Shown here: in pieces, positions 3,488 to 43,107 of the stretch
How positions within the stretch are numbered: the first letter of the stretch is position 1
Layout: the number at the start of each line of letters is the position of its first letter
Assembly (NCBI GenBank): GCA_937958265.1
Contig: CALGNX010000001.1
Coordinates: forward strand, 62,001 to 126,000
DNA from: an uncultured Algibacter sp.
GTDB taxonomy: Bacteria; Bacteroidota; Bacteroidia; Flavobacteriales; Flavobacteriaceae
Direction of reading: 5' to 3'
Length of the DNA stretch: 64,000 nucleotides
Made by a program: the position numbers and the translations under genes
The notes under the pieces: generated by a model
Told to the model about the DNA's origin: nothing
Database searches by the model: none
What the model saw: only the letters and a program-made list of their open reading frames with translations

Positions 3488-5062
3488 TTACTTAGCAATA
3501 TTAACGGCTCTAGTTTCTCTAATAACAGTAACCTTTACCTGACCTGGATATGTCATGTCAGTTTGTACCTTCTGGGAAATACTAAAGGATAATTCTGATG
3601 CTTTTTGATCGTCAACCTTTTCGCTTTCAACAATAACACGTAATTCTCTTCCAGCCTGAATAGCATAAGCTTTCTTAACACCACCAAAACCTATAGCAAT
3701 ATCTTCTAAATCTTTAAGACGTTGAATATAACTATCCAAAACTTGTCGACGTGCTCCTGGTCTTGCGCCGGAAATAGCATCACAAACTTGAATAATAGGG
3801 GAAATTAAAAATTTCATTTCAACTTCATCGTGGTGTGCACCTATAGCGTTACAAACTTCTGGCTTTTCTCCAAATTTCTCGGCCCACTGCATACCTAAAA
3901 TAGCATGTGGTGTTTCCATATCAACTTCGGCATCTGGTACTTTTCCAATATCATGTAACAATCCTGCACGTTTGGCCATTTTAGAATTTAAGCCCAATTC
4001 TGCAGCCATAACACCACAAAGTTTGGCAACTTCGCGAGAGTGTTGTAACAGGTTTTGCCCATAAGACGAACGATATTTCATTCTTCCAACCATTTTAATA
4101 AGTTGAGGGTGTAAATTATGTATACCAAGATCTATAACCGTTCGTTTACCTACTTCTATAATTTCTTGCTCAATTTGTTTCTGTGTTTTTTTAACAACCT
4201 CCTCTATTCTAGCTGGGTGTATCCTGCCATCGGTTACTAATTTATGAAGTGATAAACGTGCCACTTCACGCCTAACAGAATCAAAACAAGATAAGATAAT
4301 GGCTTCAGGTGTATCGTCCACAATAATTTCAACCCCTGTCGCTGCTTCAATAGCTCTAATATTTCGTCCTTCACGACCTATAATTCGCCCTTTCACATCA
4401 TCAGACTCAATATTAAATACAGAAACACAATTATCAACGGCTTCTTCTGTACCAATACGCTGTATTGTGTTTATTATAATTTTTTTAGCGTCCTGTTCTG
4501 CCGTAAGCTTAGCTTCCTCTGCTGCACTTTGCACGTATGCCATCGCATCATTCTTAGCCTCTCCTTTTAACGATTCAACCAATTGCTCTTTAGCCTCCTC
4601 TGCAGACAAGCTCGAAATTACTTCCAATTGCTCTACTTGGCTTTTATGCAATCTATCAACCTCTTCCTGCTTTTTTTCTAAAGCATCAAGCCTTAGGTCG
4701 TAATTCTTAGTCTTATTTTCTAAACTTTCATTAAGTTTTTTATTTTTAGCCACTTCACTAGACAATTGCGACTCCTTATCTCGCGTACGCTTTTCAGACT
4801 CAGCTATTTTCTTATCACGACTTAAAATAATTTTCTCATGCTCTGCTTTAAGTTCAATAAATTTCTCTTTCGCTTGTAAAATTTTATTTTTCTTTAATGC
4901 TTCAGCCTCTATTTTTGCCTCCTTAAGTATAGATTCCGAATCTTTTTTCGCATCATTCACAACTTTTGAAGCGTTATTTTTTTCTAACGATTTTGCTATT
5001 AAAAAACCTATTACAAGCCCTAATATAACGCCACCTATTGCCAATATAATTGATAATTCCAT
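3488..5062 (-). CDS. rny: Ribonuclease Y
   Basis: Membrane-anchored endoribonuclease of 524 residues that starts mRNA decay. Domain order is textbook: an N-terminal membrane helix (residues about 4-24), a long charged coiled coil (about 30-200), a KH RNA-binding domain with [15 protein letters not shown], and an HD domain with [10 protein letters not shown] and downstream His/Asp metal ligands (IGAHHDE). Length matches the family. It is the last gene after zapB-like, zapA and the probable 6S RNA on the minus strand, and could be partly co-transcribed with them. Confidence 0.96.
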
Positions 5063-5090
5063 TAATTTTATTTAGTTAATTATAGTATAT

Positions 5091-5296
5091 AAAAAAGCCT
5101 ACACCAGCATAAAGTTTTGTATAAACTCCTTAAAAACAAGTTTAGGGCTAACAAGCGGATCAAGGGTCTGCCCGAGATACTGTATTACCAAAATAAATTG
5201 ACTTACAGCACTAGCAGCATGCTTTTACAACTTAAACTCACCCTTTTTAAAGAAATGATCGTTGAGTTTATCAAAAAAAATAACTAATGTAGGCAG
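5091..5296 (-). ncRNA. ssrS: Probable 6S RNA
   Basis: The 264-base gap between zapA and rny contains an RNA-like unit of about 200 nt on the minus strand. Its ends pair as an 11-bp closing stem: GCCTACATTAG (5294-5284) with CTGGTGTAGGC (5107-5097), two pairs being G-U wobbles. A U-run follows at once (5096-5091), as in a terminator. Inside, an apical stem (CTGTA with TACAG, flanked by CTGC with GCAG) leaves large internal bulges, and each strand has its own small hairpin (TAAACTC/GAGTTTA and TAAACT/AGTTTA). Size, rod shape and position directly after zapA match 6S RNA, which mimics open promoter DNA and binds sigma-factor-loaded RNA polymerase. I could not run a covariance search, so the name rests on structure and synteny. 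Confidence 0.72.
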
Positions 5297-8371: not shown

Positions 8372-10831
8372 TTGAAAGCAAAGCAAATACTCGCCCCCGT
8401 TCTTTTTTTTTTAATATGCACCTTAAATTTCGCTCAAAACGCTACGATTAAAGGTATTATTCTTGATGATGAAAATCGACCTATTGAAAATGTTAATATT
8501 AAATCAAAATCTAATGGAACTAAAACAAATACCAACGGCTTTTTTATTTTAAAAATACCTGCCAATGAAGATGTTGTTTTAGAATTCACACATATTTCTC
8601 ATAAAAAAATAAAAAGCACCTTTTACTTAAAAAGCGGTGAGGAGTTAGAGTTCAATCCTGTAATGAGTACAACTATTGAGCAAATTGCCACAGTAATAAT
8701 TAGTGGTAATCGCCGTAAAGATGTTGAAGGCATTATAACAATAAAACCCGATGTTATTAGAAAAATACCTGGAGCCAATGCTGGCGTAGAAAATTTACTA
8801 TTAACATTACCCGGAGTTAGTAATAACAACGAATTAAGCACACAATACTCCGTACGTGGCGGAAATTACGACGAGAATTTAGTTTATGTAAATGGTATTG
8901 AGGTGTATCGCCCTTTTTTAGTCCGCTCTGGCCAACAGGAAGGCTTAAGTTTTGTAAACACCGATTTAGTACAAAATGTAGATTTTTCAGCTGGTGGCTT
9001 TCAAGCTAAATATGGGGATAAGTTATCTTCTGTTTTAGATATCACCTACAAAGATCCGTATAAGTTTGAAGTAAATGCAGATTTAAGTTTACTTGGTGGT
9101 AGTTTATCTTATGAAAACATTAGTAAAGACTCTAAATTTACAGGCATTACTGGCCTGCGTTACAGAGATAACAGTTTATTAGTAAATGCTAAAGAAACCA
9201 AAATTAATTTCAGGCCTACTTTTGCAGATGCACAAAGTTATTTCACTTACAAGTTTAATGATAAATTCCATTTAAGCTTTTTAGGTAGTGCCGCTTTAAA
9301 TAAATATAATTTTAAACCTTTAGAGCGTGAAACAAATTTTGGAACACTAACAGATCCTATGGCATTATTAATTTTTTATGAAGGCCAAGAAAAAACGAGA
9401 TACCAAACGCTTTTTGGAGCCTTTAAAGGCTCTTATTTTGTTAACGATGATTTAACGCTTCATTTTATTGCTTCAACTTACCATACCACCGAAGAAGAAT
9501 ATTTTGATATTTTAGCACAATACCGTTTAGGTGAAGTAAATAGTAATATAGGGGATGAAAACTTAGGCGAAGTTGAATTTAGCCGAGGTGTAGGCAGTCA
9601 GCTTTTACATGGTAGAAATGATTTAGATGCGCTTATAACAAATATCGAACATAAAGGTGACTTTAAACTTAATGAAAACCGTTTTGAATGGTCTGTAAAA
9701 TATACGAACGAGGATTTTAGAGACCGCTTAGTTGAATGGGAGGTTATTGATTCTGTTGGATTTTCAGTAAGACCACCAAGAACAGCGCCTAACAACCAAC
9801 CCTATAACGCATTTGCTGCTCCATTAGAACCTTTTCAAAATATACGAACGGTAAACAAAACACAAATAAACAGATTTCAGGCCTATGCACAGTGGAGTAA
9901 ACGCACCACTTTAGGAAGTAGTGATGTTTGGTATAATGCCGGAATTCGCACACATGGTTGGTCTGTAAGTGGTGAAAACATCGCAACATCCAATCAAATT
10001 GTTTTAACACCGCGTGGCCAATTTAGCATAAAACCAAACTGGGAAAAAGATATGCTTTTTAGAGTTTCTACAGGCTTTTATTATCAGCCGCCGTTTTACC
10101 GCGAATTACGTGGGCGCGATGGCTCGGTAAACCCAAGTGTAAACTCTCAAAAATCGTTTCATTTTGTAGTAGGTAACGATTATAGTTTTAAAATGTGGGA
10201 TAGGCCATTTAAATTAACTTCGGAGTTGTATTATAAAAATTTAAACGATGTTAACACATATACGCTGGAAAATGTTCGAATTCGTTATAGGGCAAATAAC
10301 GATGCTGTAGCTTACGCCTATGGGTTAGATTTACGATTAAATGGAGAGTTTGTACCTGGTACCGAATCGTGGTTTAGTTTTGGGTATTTAAAAACAGAGG
10401 AGAATTTAGATAATCGTGGCTTTATAGCTCGCCCTACAGACCAGCGTTTAAAATTTGCAGCGTTATTTCAAGATTACGTACCTAATATGCCTAATTTAAA
10501 ATTATACTTAAATTTAGTTTATAATACTGGCTTACCAGGTGGGTCGCCAAGCTTTGCAGATCCTTACCAGTTTCAAAATAGATTACCAAATTACAATAGA
10601 GCAGATTTAGGGTTGCAATATGTTTTAGTAGATTCTAAAAAATTGTTTGATAGTGGCTGGAAAAAGCCATTTAAAGCGTTGTCTTTAGGTTTTGAAATTT
10701 TTAATATTTTCGATGTTCAAAACTCAATAACCAATACCTGGGTTAGAGATGTAAGTAACCAAAGGCAAATTGCTATTCCTAACTTTTTAACCCCTCGTGT
10801 TTTTAATATTAGAACCACTATGAAGTTTTAG
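8372..10831 (+). CDS. TonB-dependent outer-membrane receptor
   Basis: Outer-membrane beta-barrel transporter driven by TonB/ExbBD. After a signal peptide (ILAPVLFFLICTLNFAQ) come a carboxypeptidase-like regulatory domain (ATIKGIILDDENRPIENV, about 75 residues), a plug domain (IKPDVIRKIPGANAGVENLLLTLPGV region, with YSVRGGNYDENLVYVNG), and a long barrel ending in the aromatic-rich RTTMKF. There is no SusD partner, so it need not be a glycan importer; substrate unknown. Start choice: ATG at 8312 overlaps the peptidase gene by 47 bases and puts 20 non-signal-like residues before the signal peptide; TTG at 8372 gives a clean signal peptide 13 bases after the upstream stop. I chose TTG but the longer form (839 residues) is possible. 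Confidence 0.88.
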   Translation: MKAKQILAPVLFFLICTLNFAQNATIKGIILDDENRPIENVNIKSKSNGTKTNTNGFFILKIPANEDVVLEFTHISHKKIKSTFYLKSGEELEFNPVMSTTIEQIATVIISGNRRKDVEGIITIKPDVIRKIPGANAGVENLLLTLPGVSNNNELSTQYSVRGGNYDENLVYVNGIEVYRPFLVRSGQQEGLSFVNTDLVQNVDFSAGGFQAKYGDKLSSVLDITYKDPYKFEVNADLSLLGGSLSYENISKDSKFTGITGLRYRDNSLLVNAKETKINFRPTFADAQSYFTYKFNDKFHLSFLGSAALNKYNFKPLERETNFGTLTDPMALLIFYEGQEKTRYQTLFGAFKGSYFVNDDLTLHFIASTYHTTEEEYFDILAQYRLGEVNSNIGDENLGEVEFSRGVGSQLLHGRNDLDALITNIEHKGDFKLNENRFEWSVKYTNEDFRDRLVEWEVIDSVGFSVRPPRTAPNNQPYNAFAAPLEPFQNIRTVNKTQINRFQAYAQWSKRTTLGSSDVWYNAGIRTHGWSVSGENIATSNQIVLTPRGQFSIKPNWEKDMLFRVSTGFYYQPPFYRELRGRDGSVNPSVNSQKSFHFVVGNDYSFKMWDRPFKLTSELYYKNLNDVNTYTLENVRIRYRANNDAVAYAYGLDLRLNGEFVPGTESWFSFGYLKTEENLDNRGFIARPTDQRLKFAALFQDYVPNMPNLKLYLNLVYNTGLPGGSPSFADPYQFQNRLPNYNRADLGLQYVLVDSKKLFDSGWKKPFKALSLGFEIFNIFDVQNSITNTWVRDVSNQRQIAIPNFLTPRVFNIRTTMKF

Positions 10832-34048: not shown

Positions 34049-34477
34049 ATGTTTAGCAAAGAAGAATCAAGACGTTTACGCGAAGAGTTTTGGATAAGTT
34101 TTGGAAAATCATTCCCAAGAAAATGGGTGTTGTATGATACTAAGCTTAAAGGCTTAAGTTTTAAGTTTTATTTTGATACCAAATCTGCTTTAATAGCTCT
34201 GGATTTAGAAGACGACCTAGAGAAACGCATAACACACTGGGAGAAACTAATAAGTTTAAAATCTATATTGTTAGCTGATTATATACCTGAAGCTATTTTC
34301 GAGGAAGAATATTTTTTAGATAATGAAAAAGAAATTTCTAGAATATATTTACCGTTAAATCAAAAAGTATCCATACATAATAAAAATTCATGGGGTGATG
34401 TTATGGTTTTTTTTAATAAAAACATGAGCTTATTTGAAGATTTTTTTGAAACATATAGAGAGGTTATCGAAGCTTAA
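34049..34477 (+). CDS. DUF4268 family protein
   Basis: 142 residues, mostly helical and acidic. Opening FSKEESRRLREEFWISFGK and the later LKGLSFKFYFD and RITHWEKL match DUF4268, a family of unknown function that also occurs as a C-terminal domain next to nuclease-like folds. Here it stands alone. No signal peptide or membrane segment. Confidence 0.8.
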   Translation: MFSKEESRRLREEFWISFGKSFPRKWVLYDTKLKGLSFKFYFDTKSALIALDLEDDLEKRITHWEKLISLKSILLADYIPEAIFEEEYFLDNEKEISRIYLPLNQKVSIHNKNSWGDVMVFFNKNMSLFEDFFETYREVIEA

Positions 34478-34601: not shown

Positions 34602-37472
34602 TTACCCCGTCATACCATTAATAAATACGGTTATGTATTTTTTCATTTTTATAATAATACGTTCGCCAATTTCACGCGCTTTTAAAATACTTGGTCTGTT
34701 GTCTAGGCATTTAAAAACATCTTGTTTAATGGGTTCTTGTCCGTTATAAATATAGCTTTCTATTAAAGCACTAAATTGCTCTTGGTCTAAATTTTCTTCT
34801 TCACAAATTTTAGATAATGCCAAAACTTTTTCTTGTTTCCAGAATTTTTCAAATTCATCTTGTATAGCATCTACATCATCTATAAAAGGTAAGTTTTCTT
34901 CTATAAATTTTTCAATCAATTCACGTTTGCTTCTTAATTTTATTGTTCCACCCAGTAAATCTACTATTGCTTTTTTTTGTTTTTCAGCTTCTGTTTTATT
35001 TGAAGTTTTCATTTTTGATAAAAGCTGTAAAATATAAATTACATTAATTTCATCTCTATGAATTAATTCCAATTCAAAATCGATATCGTTTAAAATTGAT
35101 ATTTTTTGTGTGGCGCTTTGTTGGTCTACAAAATCTTTAATTTCTAAATACTCACTTTGGTATTCAAAAAACGTTTGCTCATCAATCCCTAAATCTTCCC
35201 AGTTAAAATCAACGTATGATTGTAGCGCATTTTTAGCTCTTAAAAGCCTTCTAAAGGCTTGTACAAATTGATACTGTTGCTCCTCGCCTATTAAATTATC
35301 TACACTTTGGTGAGTAGGCGTAATTTTTAATAATGCTTGTAAAGCTTCGTCAAATTTCTGTGCTACCGCATCATAATTTGGCGTAAAAATGGTTTCATTA
35401 GCATTCTTTTTTGAAAACAACGAAATCGCTTCATCTGTAGCTTTTTTTAAGTTTCTAAAACACAAAATGTTTCCTTGAGATTTCTTCTCGTCTAAAATTC
35501 TATTGGTTCTAGAAAAAGCCTGTATTAAGCCATGATGCTTTAAATTTTTATCTACATATAATGTATTTACTTTCTTAGCATCAAAACCGGTTAGCATCAT
35601 GTTTACTACAATTACAAGATCCAACCTATCTTTTACATTGTCAAAATTTTTCTTTTCCCGCTCTTTTAAACGCTTGCTTATATCTTTAAAATACGCTTCG
35701 AACAGCTTGCCGTCTTTGGTAGAAAAAGCAGTATTATACATACCGTTATAATCGGCAATATATTCGTCTAATTTTTCTCTAGAATGGCTGCTGTATGGAC
35801 TTTCTTCTTCTGCCGCAATACCAATTGGTGTGTCTGGTAAACAACCTTGTGCATCTGTACTTGCTTCATTGGCTGCGTAAGAAAAAATAGTTGCAATTCT
35901 TAAATTGTGTTCTCCTGCTAATTTTTTCGCCTTAAAAATATCGTAATATTTAATTAAAGTTTTAATGTCTGAAACTGCAAACAAAGCAGAAAAATGTTTT
36001 GATGCGGTTTTTACGTCATGATATTTTATAATATAATCTGCAATTTTTTCTAAGCGTTTTTCGTCTTTAAAAACTTCGGTTTTATTTATATCTTCTACAT
36101 CAATATCTAAAAGCGTGTTGTTTTTATTTTTATACCTGCCAACATATTCTATTCCAAAACGCAATACATTGCCATCGCCAATGGCATCTGTAATTACATA
36201 TTTATGCAAACAGTTACCAAATAAATCTTTAGTGGTTCTTTTCCCTAAATCGTTTTTTGAGGCATTTTCTGCAAAAATAGGTGTGCCTGTAAAACCAAAT
36301 AATTGGGCATTGCTAAAATAGTTGGTAATTAGTTTGTGTGTGTCTCCAAACTGACTTCTATGGCATTCATCAAAAATTAAAACTACTTTTTGCGTTTTTA
36401 AATGCGCTATTTTATTTTTGTATTGCGCTTTAGAAATGGCATTGTTTAGCTTTTGTATGGTAGTTAGCACCAATTTGGAGTTATCTGCCAATTGCTTTAC
36501 CAAACTATTGGTATTGTTTGTAACATCTACACTTCCTTTTTTAAAAGCGTTAAATTCGTTCATGGTTTGGTAGTCTAAATCTTTTCTATCTACCACAAAT
36601 AAAACCTTATCTACAGCAGGCAAATTCATAATAATTTGGCTGGCTTTAAAAGAGGTTAATGTTTTACCGGAACCTGTTGTGTGCCATATATAGGCGTTTT
36701 CTGATGTATTTTGTACCTGAGCAACCAAATTTTCTACAGCATAAAATTGATAAGGTCTTAACACCATTAAAATTTTATAGGTTTCGTTACTCACAATATA
36801 TTTGGCAATTATTAATCCTAAATGTTTTGGGTTTAAAAAGGCATCTGCAAAAGGTGCTAATTCCTTAATATTTTTATTGTTAATGTCCGACCAGAAAAAG
36901 CATTGTTTTACAGATTGTAATGCATTATTCGCGAGGTATTTTGTAATTACACCATTACTTATTACAAACAATTGCACGTATTGAAATAAACCATGATGAG
37001 ACCAAAAAGAATGTTTTTGATACCGATTAATTTGATTAAAGGCTTCTTTAATTTCTAAACCTGGTCTTTTTAATTCTATTTGTACCAAAGGCAAACCATT
37101 TACCAACAAAGTAACATCGTATCTGTTTTTATACGTGCCTTCTAAAGTAACTTGATTAGTTACTTGATAAATATTCTTAGAAGTATCTTCACTATTAAAA
37201 AACCGAATGTAAGTGGCTTCTCCCCTGTCATTTTCAAACTGAAAACGACCACGTAACGTTTTAGATTTTTCGAAAACATTACCCTTTTCTAAATGATTTA
37301 AAATTGTAGAAAATTCTTTATTCGAAAACGTACAATTATTAAACCTTTCTAATTGTGTTTTTAGGTTAGCAACTAAAGCGTCTCCATTTAAAACAGCAAC
37401 TTTGGTGTAACCTAAACCTACTAATTGCTTTATAAGGTTATTTTCTAATTGAAGCTCTGATATTTTACTCAT
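34602..37472 (-). CDS. hsdR: Type I restriction enzyme, R subunit
   Basis: 956-residue motor and nuclease subunit of the type I restriction-modification complex. The N-terminal nuclease domain shows the E-x-K motif in VQIELKRPG (near residue 135) within the family's typical IRFFN...NQVTLEG context. The SF2 translocase follows: Walker A in WHTTGSGKTLTSFK (about 265), the DEAD-box variant in LIFDECHRSQFG (about 370), GFTGTPI, and MLTGFDAKKVNTLYVDK / QAFSRTNR (motifs V and VI). C-terminal helical domain binds the methylase. All key motifs are intact. It is the last gene of the locus, separated from hsdM/hsdS by the REP array and a GIY-YIG gene. Confidence 0.95.
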   Translation of the reverse strand: MSKISELQLENNLIKQLVGLGYTKVAVLNGDALVANLKTQLERFNNCTFSNKEFSTILNHLEKGNVFEKSKTLRGRFQFENDRGEATYIRFFNSEDTSKNIYQVTNQVTLEGTYKNRYDVTLLVNGLPLVQIELKRPGLEIKEAFNQINRYQKHSFWSHHGLFQYVQLFVISNGVITKYLANNALQSVKQCFFWSDINNKNIKELAPFADAFLNPKHLGLIIAKYIVSNETYKILMVLRPYQFYAVENLVAQVQNTSENAYIWHTTGSGKTLTSFKASQIIMNLPAVDKVLFVVDRKDLDYQTMNEFNAFKKGSVDVTNNTNSLVKQLADNSKLVLTTIQKLNNAISKAQYKNKIAHLKTQKVVLIFDECHRSQFGDTHKLITNYFSNAQLFGFTGTPIFAENASKNDLGKRTTKDLFGNCLHKYVITDAIGDGNVLRFGIEYVGRYKNKNNTLLDIDVEDINKTEVFKDEKRLEKIADYIIKYHDVKTASKHFSALFAVSDIKTLIKYYDIFKAKKLAGEHNLRIATIFSYAANEASTDAQGCLPDTPIGIAAEEESPYSSHSREKLDEYIADYNGMYNTAFSTKDGKLFEAYFKDISKRLKEREKKNFDNVKDRLDLVIVVNMMLTGFDAKKVNTLYVDKNLKHHGLIQAFSRTNRILDEKKSQGNILCFRNLKKATDEAISLFSKKNANETIFTPNYDAVAQKFDEALQALLKITPTHQSVDNLIGEEQQYQFVQAFRRLLRAKNALQSYVDFNWEDLGIDEQTFFEYQSEYLEIKDFVDQQSATQKISILNDIDFELELIHRDEINVIYILQLLSKMKTSNKTEAEKQKKAIVDLLGGTIKLRSKRELIEKFIEENLPFIDDVDAIQDEFEKFWKQEKVLALSKICEEENLDQEQFSALIESYIYNGQEPIKQDVFKCLDNRPSILKAREIGERIIIKMKKYITVFINGMTG

Positions 37473-37709: not shown

Positions 37710-37988
37710 CTACATTAAATCATCCCAATTAGGGTTTATACGTTCTATTAATGCAATTTTTGCCGCTCTATTTCCTGCTTTTAATTGTTTTTCTCTTGCA
37801 ATAGCATCGCCAATCATTTGGAAAGATTCATGATACACTAATTTATTCAAATTATATTTAGCAGTAAAAGATTTCTTGTTTAGTTTACTCCTGTGCTGGT
37901 TTATACGTTCTTCTAACTGCGATGTTGCACCAACATATAATGTGGTGTTATTTTTATTGGTTAGTATGTATATATAGCCTGGCTTCAT
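37710..37988 (-). CDS. GIY-YIG nuclease family protein
   Basis: 92-residue stand-alone GIY-YIG domain of the UvrC/Slx1-like small type. GYIYILTNKNNTTLYVG holds the two strand motifs; the conserved Arg falls in QLEERINQH and the metal-binding Glu in AIAREKQLK. Proteins of this size are numerous in flavobacterial genomes and are often near repeats. It lies between the REP array and hsdR on the same strand, with 237 bases to hsdR. Whether it belongs to the restriction system functionally is unknown. Confidence 0.85.
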   Translation of the reverse strand: MKPGYIYILTNKNNTTLYVGATSQLEERINQHRSKLNKKSFTAKYNLNKLVYHESFQMIGDAIAREKQLKAGNRAAKIALIERINPNWDDLM

Positions 37989-38100
37989 AAGATTTGGGGT
38001 TTGTTGTTTTTTATTAAAGCTCTAAGATACGGTTTTGTTCTTGAATTTAGCATGGCGATGCAAAGCCTGTTTCCTTTTTTGGTTTGCTTTGCTTGCCTTT

Positions 38101-39265
38101 GCTTGCTTACTCTTGTTTGGGGTTGCCACACGCTCACTGCGTTTCGTTCGCAATGACATGCTAGATGGCTTAGTGTGGTGTGAAAATTTATTTGCCTGTT
38201 GTTTATTTACGTCATTGCGAGGCACGAAGCAATCTGTTTGTTGTTTATTTGTGTGCTTGATTTTTTGCTTTGCCTTGTTTGGGTGGGTTTGCTTGCTTAC
38301 TCTTGTTTGGGGTTGCCACACTCTCACTGCGTTTCGTTCGCAATAACGTGCTAGATGGCTTGTCGTGGCGTAAAACTTTATCTGGCTGCTGTTTGTTTCT
38401 GTCATTGCGAGGCACGAAGCAATCTGTTTGTTGTTTATTTGTGTGCTTGATTTTTTGCTTTGCCTTGTTTGACCGCCTGTTTCTTGCTTACTGCTCTTTG
38501 GGTTTGCCACACTCTCACTGCGTTTCGTTCGCAATGACATGCTAGATGGTGTGGCGTAAAACTTTATCTACCTGCTGTTTGTTTCTGTCATTGCGAGGCA
38601 CGAAGCAATCTGTTTGTTGTTTACCTGTTTGCTTGATTTGTTTGACCGCCTGTTGCTTACTCTTGTTTGGGTTTGCCGCACGCTCACTGCGTTTCGTTCG
38701 CAATGACATGCTTGATGGCTTGGTGCGAAACTTTAACCACCTTAGTTTGCTTACTCTTGTTTGGGTTTGCCTCACTTTCACTGCGTTTCGTTCGCAATGA
38801 CATGCTAGATGGCTTGGTGTGGTGTGAAAATTTATTTGCCTTTGCTTGCTTACTCTTGTTTGAGGTTGCCACACTCTCACTGCGTTTCGTTCGCAATGAC
38901 ATGCTAGATAGTGTTTATTTACGTCATTGCGAGGCACGAAGCAATCTGTTTGTTGTTTACCTGTTTGCTTGATTTGTTTGACCGCCTGTTGCTTACTCTT
39001 GTTTGGGGTTGCCACACTCTCACTGCGTTTCGTTCGCAATGACATGCTTGATGGCTTGGTGTGGTGTGAAATTTTACTTGCCTTTGCTCGCTTACTCTTG
39101 TTTGGGGTTGCCACACTCTCACTACGTTTCGTTCGCAATGACATGCATGATAGTGTTTGTTTACGTCATTGCGAGGCACGAAGCAATCTGTTTGTTGTTA
39201 ACCTGTTTGCTTGCTGCTATTTGGGTTTGCTACACGCTCACTGCGCTTCGTTGGCAATAACACGC
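38101..39265. repeat. Array of REP-like inverted units, about 190-bp higher-order period
   Basis: GC-richer than its surroundings. Two kinds of unit alternate in opposite orientation. Forward units with GTCATTGCGAGGCACGAAGC start at 38211, 38401, 38587, 38922 and 39165. Reverse units with CTGCGTTTCGTTCGCAATGA occur near 38135, 38323, 38511, 38684, 38777, 38877 and 39020, and altered copies near 39118 and 39237. A linker with CTTACTCTTGTTTGGG precedes many reverse units. The first two copies repeat at exactly 190 bases, the next at 186; later spacing is irregular. It abuts the hsdS stop codon (39271). Open frames on both strands across it are by-products of the repeats. Comparable to bacterial interspersed mosaic elements, amplified in place. 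Confidence 0.9.
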
Positions 39266-39270
39266 TTACT

Positions 39271-40659
39271 CTAAACAAACAGCTGCTGCAACAAACCTTT
39301 TTTAAAGGTTTGTGTTTTTGCTATTTGGGTTTGTACACTTTCTATTTTTGTATCAATGGCACTTAAATAAGTGGCTATTTTTTGTTGTTCTTTTAGGGAT
39401 GGAAAACTAAATTTTAAATTTGAAAAATCAGTTTTATTTATTTGAGGAACAGCTTGAACTCCTGCTAACAATTTAATTTTAGCACCTCTAAAACTTAATA
39501 TTGAATAGATAAAATCATTACTATTATTTTTATTAGCTTCTAAAACATTTATTTGTTGATTAGTTAAACACTCCTCTGTTGTTTGAGCAACTTTTCCAAT
39601 AGTAGAACCAATACATACAAATAACACACTATTTTTTTTTACTATTCTTCCTTTTTTAAAACCTAATTCTGTTAAAGTGGTTTTTGTGTTAAAAACATAT
39701 TTATTTTCTTGAATATCAGCAGGAGAAACAAATAATTTTGAACCTCCATAATATTTTTGATTATTAGTTGATGGTGTACTTCCTGTAATAATTCTAGCAA
39801 CCTCCCCCAACTTCTTCTCTTCCCAATCTGGAAAAGAGGTTTGTTCCTTTTTCGAATTAGAGATTGCTTCACTAGCGTTCGCAATGACGTTTGAATTCGC
39901 AATAACGTCTGGTTTGTTTGTGTCTGGTTTAAAACGCAATTGCTGAGAAAAAATTTGTTGCATTGCGCCTTTTTTGTACTGCTCTAAAAGGGTTTTCTTT
40001 TGGGTTAATTGTTGTATTTTATTGTCTACAGCTGTTAAAAATGATACTATTTTTTGTTGTTCTTGGAGGGTTGGGAGATTTAACTCTATTTTGGATAATC
40101 TACTTGTTGCAATACCTAAAACTTTTGTTCCTTGAGCAATAGTCATTATTTGTTTTCTAACTTTCCAAGACTGAACTAGATAGTTTGAGAAACCTAAATA
40201 CATCTTGTACTTGTTTGGTCTAGCTAAAAATGTATGCAATCCAGCCAATGTTTTTTCTCCATTTAGATTTATAATTTCAATTGATTTACCAATATCATTA
40301 TAATCTTCAGAAGCATCAGCAATAACTAAATCTCCTATTTGACAATAATTTCCCTCTTTTATTCTTGTTAAATTAACTTCTTTATTAATAAAAGGTACTA
40401 ACTCGTTTTCAATATTAAACAAAGAAGAAAATTTAGTATGAATATCTCCATAATGAATATTTCTAACTCCTTTTTTATTATAATTTAACTTATCTCTAGA
40501 ATACGAATTAGTTGAGTAAAATGAGTAAATATCACCATACAACTTTTTTAACCAATCACCTTCAAACTCTTTAAAACGTAGTTTAGGAGTTAAAGAAACA
40601 GATTGCTTCATTCGTTCCTCATTCGCAATGACGTTAAGTTCTTTCTTTTCTGTTGCCAT
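39271..40659 (-). CDS. hsdS: Type I restriction-modification specificity subunit
   Basis: 462-residue DNA-recognition subunit with the usual two target-recognition domains (about 22-190 and 270-415), each followed by a conserved helix: LPTLQEQQKIVSFLTAVDNK (about 195-215) and FPSLKEQQKIATYLSAIDTK (about 410-430). The second domain begins FPDWEEKKLGEVARIITGST, a standard TRD opening. Two peptides come from REP elements in the DNA: VIANEERMKQS near residue 10 and VIANSNVIANASEAIS near 251-266, both in flexible places (N-terminus and the central linker). The ATG overlaps the hsdM stop by one base (TAATG), so translation is coupled. No second hsdS or invertase gene is present that would allow domain shuffling. 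Confidence 0.93.
   Translation of the reverse strand: MATEKKELNVIANEERMKQSVSLTPKLRFKEFEGDWLKKLYGDIYSFYSTNSYSRDKLNYNKKGVRNIHYGDIHTKFSSLFNIENELVPFINKEVNLTRIKEGNYCQIGDLVIADASEDYNDIGKSIEIINLNGEKTLAGLHTFLARPNKYKMYLGFSNYLVQSWKVRKQIMTIAQGTKVLGIATSRLSKIELNLPTLQEQQKIVSFLTAVDNKIQQLTQKKTLLEQYKKGAMQQIFSQQLRFKPDTNKPDVIANSNVIANASEAISNSKKEQTSFPDWEEKKLGEVARIITGSTPSTNNQKYYGGSKLFVSPADIQENKYVFNTKTTLTELGFKKGRIVKKNSVLFVCIGSTIGKVAQTTEECLTNQQINVLEANKNNSNDFIYSILSFRGAKIKLLAGVQAVPQINKTDFSNLKFSFPSLKEQQKIATYLSAIDTKIESVQTQIAKTQTFKKGLLQQLFV
39862..39907 (-). repeat. REP-like element inside hsdS (central linker)
   Basis: On the minus strand it contains GTTATTGCGAATTCAAAC and then GTCATTGCGAACGCTAGTGA followed by AGCAATC: the same core as the array units. 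It is in frame and encodes the Ala/Asn/Ser-rich stretch at about residues 251-266 between the two halves of HsdS. Confidence 0.8.
40611..40633 (-). repeat. REP-like element inside hsdS (N-terminus)
   Basis: On the minus strand GTCATTGCGAATGAGGAACG, then AATGAAGCAATC. Same GTCATTGCGA...GAAGCAATC core as the array; in frame, encoding about residues 10-20 of HsdS before the first recognition domain. Confidence 0.75.
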
Positions 40660-42221
40660 TAAAAAGGTGTTTCAATATTTAACTCTTTACAGAAATTGGC
40701 AATAATGCCATCTGTCTTTTCAATATCGGTTTCTAAGGCTTTTAAATCTTTGGCAACTTCTTCTAAAATTACAGGCTCTTCTTCTTCAAACGTATCTACA
40801 TAACGTGGTATGTTTAAGTTATAGTCGTTTTCTTTAACTTCGTTTAAAGTAGCCAAATAGCTGTATTTGTCTTTGGTTTCTCGGTTTCTGTAAGTATCTA
40901 TAATGTCTTGTAAATGCGCATCAGTAAGTACATTTTGCGTTTTCACTTTGTCAAAAGCATTGCTGGCATCAATAAAAAGAATATTTTTTGTGCTTTCGCG
41001 GTTTTTCTTCAATACCAAAATACAAGTGGGAATACTTGTACCAAAAAAGATGTTACTAGGCAAACCAATAACAGCATCTAATTGGTTTTTATCTTCAATT
41101 AAATATTTACGTATATGGCCTTCTGCAGCCCCTCTGAACAAAACACCATGTGGTAACACGCAAGCCATGGTTCCATTATCATCTAACTGATGTATCATGT
41201 GTTGTACAAAGGCAAAATCTGCTTTACTTTTAGGAGCCATTTTTCCGTACGGCGAAAAACGATCATCACTAATAATACTATCTGGATTCCATTTTGCAGA
41301 AAATGGCGGATTTGCAACAATGGCTTCAAAACGCTCTTCTGTATGTTTTGGGCTTGGATTTACTAAGGTATCTTCATTATAAATATCGAACTTTTTGTAA
41401 TGTACATCGTGCATAATCAGGTTCATTCTGCACAAGTTATAGGTTGTTGGGTTGCTTTCTTGCCCGTAAAAACTACCTACTTCTTTTACCTCTTTGGCAA
41501 CTCTAAGTAATAAAGAGCCAGAGCCACAAGTTGGGTCGTAAACCGATTTTAAACGCTCTTTACCTGTGGTTACAATTTGTGCTAATATTTTAGATACTTG
41601 TTGTGGTGTGTAAAACTCGCCTGCTTTTTTACCTGCTCCAGAGGCAAATTGCCCAATTAAATACTCGTAAGCATCACCCAGCAAATCGTTTTCGTTGTTT
41701 TCTAAATCGAAATTAATGCCTTCTAAATGCATTAATACTTTTACAATAAGTTCGTTTTTGGCTTCTTCTGTTTTACCAAGTTTGCTACTTGTTAAATCTA
41801 AATCTTCAAAAAGGTTACCAAAGTCGTCCTCAGATTCGCTACCCATGGTACTTTGCTCAATATTGGTGAGTACCTTTTGTAAATCTTCTAAAATAAATTT
41901 ATTAATTCCTCCAGCATTGCCTCTTTTAGCTATTTCGCTAAACAATTCTTTAGGTTTTAAAAAATAGCCCAGCGCATCTAAAGACGAATATTTTATTTCT
42001 TGTAAAAGCAAAGCTTCTTGTTCGTGCCCAATTACATCTTCATATTCTAAACCATCTGGTTTTAAGATGATGTTGGCGTGCAACGCCATTTTTTTACTTA
42101 AATATTTATAGAAAATAAAGCCTAGTATATAATCTCTAAAATCATCAGCATCCATATTACCACGTAAATCGTTGGCAATATTCCATAATGTTTGATGCAA
42201 TTGAAGTTGGTTTTCCGACAT
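40659..42221 (-). CDS. hsdM: Type I restriction-modification methyltransferase subunit
   Basis: 520-residue adenine-N6 methyltransferase of the type I complex. An N-terminal helical domain (WNIANDLRGNMDADDFRDYI, then FIFYKYLSKK) is followed by the catalytic domain with GEFYTPQQVSKILAQ, SAM motif I DPTCGSGSLLLRVA (about residue 230) and the N6-adenine motif IVANPPFSAKWN (about 303). A C-terminal coiled segment follows (LEEVAKDLKALETDIEK). All motifs are intact. It is the first gene of the coupled hsdM-hsdS pair. Confidence 0.95.
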   Translation of the reverse strand: MSENQLQLHQTLWNIANDLRGNMDADDFRDYILGFIFYKYLSKKMALHANIILKPDGLEYEDVIGHEQEALLLQEIKYSSLDALGYFLKPKELFSEIAKRGNAGGINKFILEDLQKVLTNIEQSTMGSESEDDFGNLFEDLDLTSSKLGKTEEAKNELIVKVLMHLEGINFDLENNENDLLGDAYEYLIGQFASGAGKKAGEFYTPQQVSKILAQIVTTGKERLKSVYDPTCGSGSLLLRVAKEVKEVGSFYGQESNPTTYNLCRMNLIMHDVHYKKFDIYNEDTLVNPSPKHTEERFEAIVANPPFSAKWNPDSIISDDRFSPYGKMAPKSKADFAFVQHMIHQLDDNGTMACVLPHGVLFRGAAEGHIRKYLIEDKNQLDAVIGLPSNIFFGTSIPTCILVLKKNRESTKNILFIDASNAFDKVKTQNVLTDAHLQDIIDTYRNRETKDKYSYLATLNEVKENDYNLNIPRYVDTFEEEEPVILEEVAKDLKALETDIEKTDGIIANFCKELNIETPF

Positions 42222-42361
42222 GTTTTTTTTGTGGTTTTTTTATGAAATAAACTTCATAAAATAGCTTTTTTTTTAATTTTTAAAAGTACAGAAATTGGGG
42301 AAAGCAGCAAGGTAAATTAGATGTTTTTTTTGTTATTGTGAATGAAACGCAGTGTTATTTC

Positions 42362-42446
42362 TCGTCATTGCGAGTGCAATGCAGTGAAAGCGAAGCAATC
42401 TATTAATTTAAACTAACAGATTGCTTCGCTATCGCTCGCAATAACG
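42362..42446. repeat. Palindromic REP pair upstream of hsdM
   Basis: Two units face each other: CGTCATTGCGAG ... CGAAGCAATCT and, after a 19-base AT-rich loop, AGATTGCTTCG ... CTCGCAATAACG. The whole can fold into a long hairpin. Same family as the array at 38101-39265. It lies between hsdM and the upstream DUF6642-like gene. Confidence 0.85.
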
Positions 42447-42507: not shown

Positions 42508-43107
42508 TTAATAGTACAACCTAAAATCTAGCAATTTACAAGCGCTGTAATATTTTTGGTGCAATTCTTCTACCACATCAAACATATTATCATCTTCCTT
42601 AAACAGATTAAAAAAGGCTTTATCTAGTTGCGAACTTGTAATACTATTAAATGGCTTGCCGTAACCAGAAACCGCTTTTGCTCCTGTAATGTCTAGAAAA
42701 TATTGCGCTTCATCTGCATCTAAATCTAATACTTTAGCGTTGGAGAAATGCAGAATTTTACCCTGTAACCTACCTTCAAAAAGCTCGGCAATTTCTTGTA
42801 AACTATAGCAATAATCGTTTATGCATATATTATTTGCTTCACCCTTAATTATTAAATAAATAATTTCGTAATCTTTAAAGTTATGATCGTCTGATAATAA
42901 TGTGGTTAAACTAGCCTCCAACCCCTCGATAGTATCGCAAGTTTTATAAATACTAGTTATGCCAAATTGCATGGTTAATTCTGTTAAGTCCTTTTGCACT
43001 GCAGTAATTGTATGGGTTTCTACATCGTTTACAGCTTCCAGGCAGTAAATAAAATAGTCTGCATCTATGGCATTGGGCTGGGGTAATTGTGTGTTTTTAT
43101 TTAACAA
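42508..43107 (-). CDS. DUF6642-like protein (caspase/CHAT-like fold), catalytic dyad apparently lost
   Basis: 199 residues, no signal peptide. From memory it aligns with DUF6642 proteins, a CHAT/caspase-like group: YFIYCLEAV, CDTIEGLEASL, YEIIYLIIKGEA, INDYCYSLQEIAELFEGR, GKILHFSNAKVL, FLDITGAKAVSGYG and terminal LLDFRLYY. Where the family has His in 'AFHGE' this protein has Lys88 (IIKGE), and where it has Cys in 'FASC' it has Ala124 (FSNA). If the alignment is right the protease dyad is gone, leaving a scaffold or binding role. It is upstream of hsdM on the same strand with a 287-base REP-bearing gap, so a link to the restriction system is only positional. A -7-like TAATTTTG lies 31 bases upstream (43145-43138). 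Confidence 0.55.
   Translation of the reverse strand: MLNKNTQLPQPNAIDADYFIYCLEAVNDVETHTITAVQKDLTELTMQFGITSIYKTCDTIEGLEASLTTLLSDDHNFKDYEIIYLIIKGEANNICINDYCYSLQEIAELFEGRLQGKILHFSNAKVLDLDADEAQYFLDITGAKAVSGYGKPFNSITSSQLDKAFFNLFKEDDNMFDVVEELHQKYYSACKLLDFRLYY

Follow-up and report, generated by a model that had tools for sequence, protein, structure and literature searches.

The GC-rich array behind hsdS in this Algibacter genome probably represents the DNA component, amplified in place, of a selfish cassette of nuclease and repeats, in which a small GIY-YIG gene and the CGTC-type hairpin repeats surrounding it reside in type I restriction-modification operons. We observed a pairing of gene and repeat across relatives, confinement of the repeat to one locus in this genome, likeness between the repeats at the two ends of a locus, different repeats beside different nuclease clades, presence or absence of the unit between species, particular sites of insertion, and duplications within the array.

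The window, the 64,000-nucleotide stretch of DNA that was analysed, contains all three genes of a type I restriction-modification system: hsdM (40659-42221; 520 aa; TIGR00497, 3.1e-136), a single hsdS (39271-40659; 462 aa; PF01420, 5.1e-37) and hsdR (34602-37472; 956 aa; TIGR00348, 1.5e-140). Between the array and hsdR, which is not the next gene after the array, stands an intact 92-aa GIY-YIG nuclease gene (37710-37988; Pfam PF01541, 5.2e-17), giving the order hsdM, hsdS, array, GIY-YIG, hsdR with every gene on the minus strand. The locus is flanked by genes for DUF6642 (42508-43107) and DUF4268 (34049-34477) proteins.

The array (38100-39266) stops four bases short of the stop codon of hsdS, whose lowest base is 39271 (minus strand), and is composed of five F and nine R units, each kind in a single orientation and the R units all facing the opposite way to the F units. 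The F core GTCATTGCGAGGCACGAAGC has five exact copies, all on the plus strand; F unit 1 (38211-38236, plus strand) reads GTCATTGCGAGGCACGAAGCAATCTG, and the others begin at 38401, 38587, 38923 and 39165 on the same strand. Within the array the R core CTGCGTTTCGTTCGCAATGAC is exact in six units and carries 1 mismatch in two and 3 in one, with an extra copy (3 mismatches) upstream of hsdM. The first R core (38137-38157 in plus-strand coordinates) reads GTCATTGCGAACGAAACGCAG on the minus strand, and the remaining R units begin at 38327, 38518, 38687, 38781, 38880, 39023, 39122 and 39241; directly 3' of the hsdS stop lies a degenerate R unit (39204-39266, plus strand) whose core reads GTTATTGCCA, with 2 mismatches. 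Tandem Repeats Finder reported periods of 190 (38095-38722), 99 (38653-38909) and 242 (38747-39213), the last being a head-to-tail duplication of 242 bp in 1.9 copies with a 94% match. Direct duplications of this kind (period 190 in the first part of the array, 242 in the last) show that it has grown by tandem duplication and that unequal recombination or slippage has happened. Its GC fraction of 0.448, against 0.318 for the window and 0.291 for hsdS, makes it the most GC-rich 1.17-kb stretch of the window (50-base steps). The description given from the letters alone thus held for the array itself, including at least five F and about nine R units, a period of 186-190 bases at its start, a GC content above the surroundings, an onset within a few bases of the hsdS stop, and an unusual local amplification of REP-like units inside a restriction locus. 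Two minus-strand open frames inside the array (38022-38540, 172 aa; 38542-39144, 200 aa; MSLRTKRSE...) are probably not genes.

Repeats are prone to misassembly, and an array of this kind could in principle be an assembly artefact. This is barely credible here: the R units are 3-17% divergent from the reference unit, which speaks against a simple artefact of duplication, the array is internal to a 417-kb contig, and other genera have repeats at the same place.

A search of the 2.89-Mb genome for exact copies of the core GTCATTGCGA found 15, all of them within 4.2 kb at the hsd locus (G000:C1:100148-104373), from the array to a point upstream of hsdM; the reversed motif, used as a control, has three matches in the genome. 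With 15 of 15 exact cores at one locus, the two other hsdS loci of the genome (C1:357 kb and C18:5 kb) and a weak third match (C18:10.8 kb) are left without a core. The sequence-only reading had proposed ordinary REP elements that were amplified by chance behind hsdS and might affect hsdS-hsdR expression. Although the units are REP-like and tandemly duplicated, the genome holds no dispersed family of the core and its sole Y1 transposase match lies on a different contig, C27, and we regard that account as very improbable. Because GTCATTGCGA is found only at the hsd locus, the repeats are not a genome-wide REP family amplified at this point; the F and R cores are likewise not dispersed, and genome-wide core counts revealed no similar arrays at unrelated loci. 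A RAYT partner was rejected as well, the one PF01797 match of the genome being that on C27, with none near the array. What the earlier reading described as an array was confirmed and its genome-wide REP interpretation contradicted; it had also overlooked the GIY-YIG partner and the repeat copies in hsdS and upstream of hsdM.

Those further copies are placed as follows. One lies in the hsdS reading frame before the first target recognition domain (TRD1) at codon 10 (40599-40632, minus strand; NVIANEERMKQSV), and two (39860-39906, minus strand; 1 and 0 mismatches) lie in the linker at codons 252 and 258, between LRFK and FPDWEEKKLG. An inverted pair sits upstream of hsdM (42332-42445). In the window the repeats are found solely on the 5' side of the GIY-YIG gene.

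The predicted model of the small GIY-YIG protein has a pLDDT of 95.8, and its sole match below E 0.001 in a PDB comparison was UPF0213 BH0048 (1zg2); Slx1 and the nuclease domain of UvrC came next, at E 0.02-0.1. Residues Y7, Y18, R28, H32, E66 and N85, which we take to be the catalytic positions, are invariant in a chosen set of 17 GIY-YIG sequences and in another set of 15. The genome has three more GIY-YIG matches, each in an open frame of 447-611 aa. In a 2025 paper, Neisseria Ssn is reportedly described as a single-strand nuclease of GIY-YIG type with many homologues and with NTS repeats as its target. As in the Ssn family, the protein here is a small single-domain GIY-YIG protein with the presumed catalytic residues, paired with GTCATT-type repeats that surround its gene, the exact core being absent nearby in 29 of 80 relatives. 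The general pairing of nuclease and repeat may already be in print; a location in type I loci, repeat copies within hsdS and a local array are not known to be features of the Ssn/NTS pair. The GIY-YIG genes of L084 (10001-10285) and L083 (4374-4649) contain an in-frame stop, and their repeats are still there.

Genome contigs were scanned for relatives of the GIY-YIG gene, and the best 80 of 570 confirmed candidate loci were used to measure how the core is distributed around it. Within 100 bp of the gene the core density was 5.6/kb upstream and 4.4/kb downstream, compared with 0.018/kb and 0.047/kb at 5-10 kb, distances that may be off by a few bases, a standard length having been used to place most gene ends. 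Core density beside the gene thus exceeds that at 5-10 kb about 100-fold among these best 80 of 570, and this holds in many phyla. Within 500 bp there were 177 cores, against a mean of 16.9 and a maximum of 43 in 2000 random placements; a core was present within this distance in 51/80 loci and on both sides in 39/80, and three control motifs gave 2, 1 and 1 matches overall. A second, partly overlapping draw that included the window had the 9-base core within 1.5 kb in 20 of 30 loci. The 8-mers most enriched beside the gene are pieces of the GTCATTGCGA-type repeat, and GCAATC or GCAAAC follows within 45 bases of 149 of 189 cores. Moreover, the inverted ends of a locus (plus strand before the gene, minus strand behind it) resemble one another, scoring 7.8 for own pairs versus 2.7, a difference reached in 0 of 5000 permutations (n=30). 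End pairs facing the same way are also alike within a locus (n=9 and n=16), and those with the minus strand before and the plus strand behind showed no such likeness (n=9, P 0.5).

The exact core was not found within 500 bp of the gene in 29 of the 80 loci. In eight of these a different GTCAT-type 10-mer was among the four most repeated (GTCATCCTGA in L099; GTCATCGCGA in L106; GTCATCCTCG in L123, where it is more repeated far from the gene than near it; GTCATTCCC in L130, L133 and L140; GTCATTCC in L154; GTCATTCTG in L158), and the remainder had none; the repeated 10-mer of the core-less locus L113 is GTCTTTGCGA. Folding of the inner part of the repeat gave no consistent excess of pairing (mean z -0.33 over 92 parts, with single-base shuffles), leaving a conserved inner hairpin unsupported overall. 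Exact cores were present at one of 20 loci on viral contigs, and we rejected viral spread as an explanation. The one locus, L264 (~5001-5288), on a contig listed as viral, has a 71% identical GIY-YIG gene with repeats on both sides.

The partner repeat differs in another branch of the nuclease family. L207, an hsd locus of the same family as that in the window, contains a distant GIY-YIG gene (8e-12; ~9749-10157) between hsdM and hsdS, whose product is 39% identical to the protein in the window. There a second motif, GAGCG.AG.CGA, flanks the nuclease and occurs in the N-terminal part of hsdS. Relatives of this second clade were sampled by taking 30 loci from 59 genomes with a match among 397, two of which (L309 and L313) are shorter loci with the gene place mis-set. 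Here 38 copies of GAGCG.AG.CGA lie within 400 bp of the gene, in 12 of 30 loci, and none elsewhere in the 3-kb loci; this loosely defined core also matches the hsdM or hsdS bodies of several loci in a chance-like manner. GTCATTGCGA was near one of the 30 second-clade genes, so a different nuclease clade has a different repeat. This, together with the density of the core beside the first clade, identifies the repeats as the DNA partner of the nuclease, and the second clade and the core-less loci suggest from their sequences that protein clades may match core variants. In L200 a second-type repeat was seen in the hsdS linker (position 9026; PAPSGAEG), with no GIY-YIG gene found in the locus.

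A compact form of the unit was observed in a Chryseobacterium-type genus, where a GIY-YIG gene with one repeat on each side, about 0.4 kb in all, lies between a ribonuclease gene (PF00545, 4.9e-16) and a barstar gene (PF01337, 3.4e-20). Among 30 loci fetched from 74 genomes with a match, the gene was present in 13, of which 12 had both exact inverted ends, and absent from 17, including one with 10 bases between ribonuclease and barstar and three with a leftover core. Six further loci from the 80-locus scan all have the gene, having been found through it and being partly of the same species. These (L092, L094, L095, L096, L097 and L111; ~9900-10450) show the arrangement of ribonuclease, GIY-YIG with inverted ends and barstar in Chryseobacterium, with presence varying by species.

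In a tree of 91 GIY-YIG loci, 14 had an hsd match within 10 kb (E <=1e-5, fragments included), and 12 of these were members of a single, weakly supported clade of 15 (82/85; 95 columns); two of them, G044 from the genus of the window and G017, are near a different type I family (26-31% identity). The order hsdM, hsdS, GIY-YIG, hsdR, with or without extra genes before hsdR, also occurs in L190, L191, L192, L082, L084, L085, L285 and L286. Extra genes between GIY-YIG and hsdR were seen in L082 (10497-13349; Fic and Abi_2) and L085 (10384-11703; no Pfam match), and this gap may be an insertion hot spot.

Repeat copies were mapped in nine nuclease-linked loci with up to 1 mismatch, the hsdS linker borders being set by motif. 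These nine include L285, whose TRD1 frame is broken and whose start and linker were placed by hand. Outside them stand L087, the loci L193, L195, L196, L081 and L290 (fragments or another type I family), and L080, whose hsdS is cut by the contig end and in which there is an upstream linker copy as well as copies 3' of the stop. Copies were present before TRD1 or within 100 bp upstream of the hsdS start in 8/9 loci (in L084 upstream only), in the linker in 6/9, and 0-30 bp behind the hsdS stop in 8/9, the 2-mismatch unit of the window being uncounted. The bodies of hsdM and hsdR and the TRDs of the nine loci contained none with up to 1 mismatch. Ten comparison loci, taken from among the best HsdS matches (104 of 249 genomes matched) and picked by likeness to the HsdS of the window, had copies before TRD1 in four (one exact, three with 1 mismatch), in the linker in none and behind the stop in one, along with one 1-mismatch match in an hsdS body (L207). 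With L207, which carries the second-clade nuclease, removed, Fisher tests of nine against nine gave 0.13 before TRD1, 0.009 in the linker and 0.003 behind the stop, and with all ten comparison loci 0.057, 0.003 and 0.001; the loci are related, and the insertions are thus not independent events.

The inserts in hsdS use three forward frames (VIA, HCER and SLR), which is most simply explained by separate insertions, and the HsdS peptides VIANASEAISN, SLRGTKQS and HCERSEAIS appear from their sequences to be repeat-derived. In the HsdS alignment the linker insert is absent from L082 and L087. In G113 the copy in hsdS and a copy beside the nuclease agree at 40 of 41 bases, and G225 has two systems of the same family, of which L191 carries both gene and repeats and L202 lacks both. 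The structure model of HsdS (pLDDT 37.8) was too poor to place the repeat-encoded inserts in loops. In L285 (8100-9575) there are tandem VIANAP-like copies in the HsdS N-terminus, and its broken TRD1 frame could reflect sequence error, decay or phase variation.

The three insertion sites lie where one or other of the two recognition modules of HsdS begins or ends. This fits a role in TRD shuffling, in which the nuclease and repeats would be kept since repeats bracketing the halves of hsdS allow TRDs to be swapped, lost or shifted between position 1 and position 2, but a tolerance of flexible joints for insertions explains the same sites. In several genera copies lie before TRD1, before TRD2 and after TRD2, like the x-TRD1-y-x-TRD2-y arrangement outlined in the sections consulted of PMC3077401. 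TRD position swaps do occur in this HsdS family: TRD1 of the window is 67% identical to TRD2 of L200, and its TRD2 matches the TRD1 of L082 at 71% and that of L200 at 65% identity. In the six linked genes with linker copies, identical stretches of 14-21 bases are common to the N-terminal and linker regions, versus shuffled maxima of 9-11, and the second, unlike pair in L207 is also in an hsd locus with a repeat in the hsdS N-terminus. However, swaps are also found at nuclease-free loci (L200 and L203), and the conserved regions of HsdS can by themselves supply the homology. Three of the nine linked loci have no linker copies, L087 has its nuclease 2.5 kb from hsdM without copies in hsdS, and the L200 linker bears a second-type repeat with no nuclease in the locus. 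We consider it unlikely, if deserving of some weight, that shuffling is what maintains the pair. We are equally doubtful of the broader proposal that GIY-YIG genes and the repeats they would cut form specificity-shuffling modules of type I loci, in which recombination triggered by the nuclease would swap, move or replace recognition domains, with at least two unlike pairs settled in the same place, and that such genes are generally the missing partner enzyme of CGTC-tagged REPs.

Tolerance alone might also account for the pattern, if inert repeats pile up harmlessly near the GIY-YIG gene and in HsdS linkers and the nuclease has no role in their spread. Insertion restricted to module borders in the linked loci is in keeping with this, as are repeats at the hsdS N-terminus of nuclease-free loci and in genomes with no GIY-YIG match (28 copies in G016, one each in G037 and G058); the gene is thus not needed for the repeat to be present. 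This explanation nevertheless leaves unaccounted for the ~100-fold enrichment at the gene in many phyla, the different repeat beside a different nuclease clade, the confinement to one locus in this genome and the like ends within loci, and we judge it improbable, more so than shuffling.

We favour a selfish cassette whose repeats would be copied locally. By analogy with Neisseria Ssn, the GIY-YIG nuclease would cut the repeat, probably in single-stranded form. Repair or strand slippage between copies could then generate new copies nearby, duplicate units in tandem and seed the neighbouring DNA. Selection would remove insertions that broke hsdM, hsdR or a TRD and spare those before TRD1, in the linker or behind the stop, and the 1.2-kb array would be where such duplications accumulate. 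Copying within the locus accounts for the local confinement better than transposition to random sites does. Weighing against the cassette are the 29 of 80 loci that lack the exact core close to the gene, the unlike ends of loci with the minus strand before and the plus strand behind, the copies before TRD1 in four of ten comparison loci, the unsupported inner hairpin, the one-sided repeats of the window and the in-frame stop in the hsd-linked nuclease gene of L084. In some genomes the repeat is dispersed, with 14 matches in G134 and 11 in G127, and these copies together with those in G016 indicate that local confinement is not its only behaviour.

The repeats are close to a known group. The CGTC-tagged REP superfamily, as described in the sections consulted of Di Nocera et al. 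2013 (PMC3733652), has Neisseria dRS3 and Rickettsia RPE-4/RPE-6 as members, counts Bacteroidetes among its phyla and appears to lack a dedicated transposase; a text search of the article found no occurrence of the term GIY-YIG. As in that superfamily, so far as those sections define it, the repeats here carry a CGTC or TGTC tag (C in 69 and T in 83 copies before GTC, 152 of 176 together), a stem beginning with AT, inverted pairs and some intragenic copies. In contrast to its 8-9 bp stem with a 4-5 base loop, however, the outer stem here is 5 bp and the inside variable (the F unit of the window folds with 5 bp and a 10-base loop, and other copies vary), and in place of the CCA tail the window copies continue with CTG, CTC or CCC. 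Furthermore, the repeats flank a GIY-YIG gene, whereas CGTC-tagged REPs have no apparent transposase. As these stem, loop and tail features are missing, we treat the repeats as related to the superfamily and do not file them as members.

Other systems offer partial parallels in the sections consulted of their descriptions. RAYT-REP and REPIN systems (PMC3116915, PMC8266576) likewise have short hairpin repeats on either side of a gene, and these repeats also occur singly or as inverted pairs, but their enzyme is a Y1 tyrosine transposase, which is not found beside the repeats here, where the enzyme is of GIY-YIG type and the repeats occupy one locus. DOMO in HsdS (PMC3077401) likewise involves TRDs that are flanked by repeats and common to positions 1 and 2, but those repeats belong to the organisation of the gene itself, whereas here a repeat of a nuclease-linked family has been added. 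Repeats in and near hsdS are also present in type I loci that combine duplicated hsdS genes with inverted repeats (PMC7394358), in contrast to the single hsdS of the present locus. Among the matches listed in our literature searches, mostly titles and abstract openings, none tied repeats in hsdS to a GIY-YIG gene and none concerned Ssn or GIY-YIG proteins with REPs.

The mover of CGTC-tagged REPs was left open in 2013, in the sections consulted of PMC3733652, and the pairing of gene and repeat in several phyla names a candidate enzyme. The presence of the pair in type I loci, where copies occupy the joints of HsdS, presents a case in which a selfish repeat may have shaped a defence protein.
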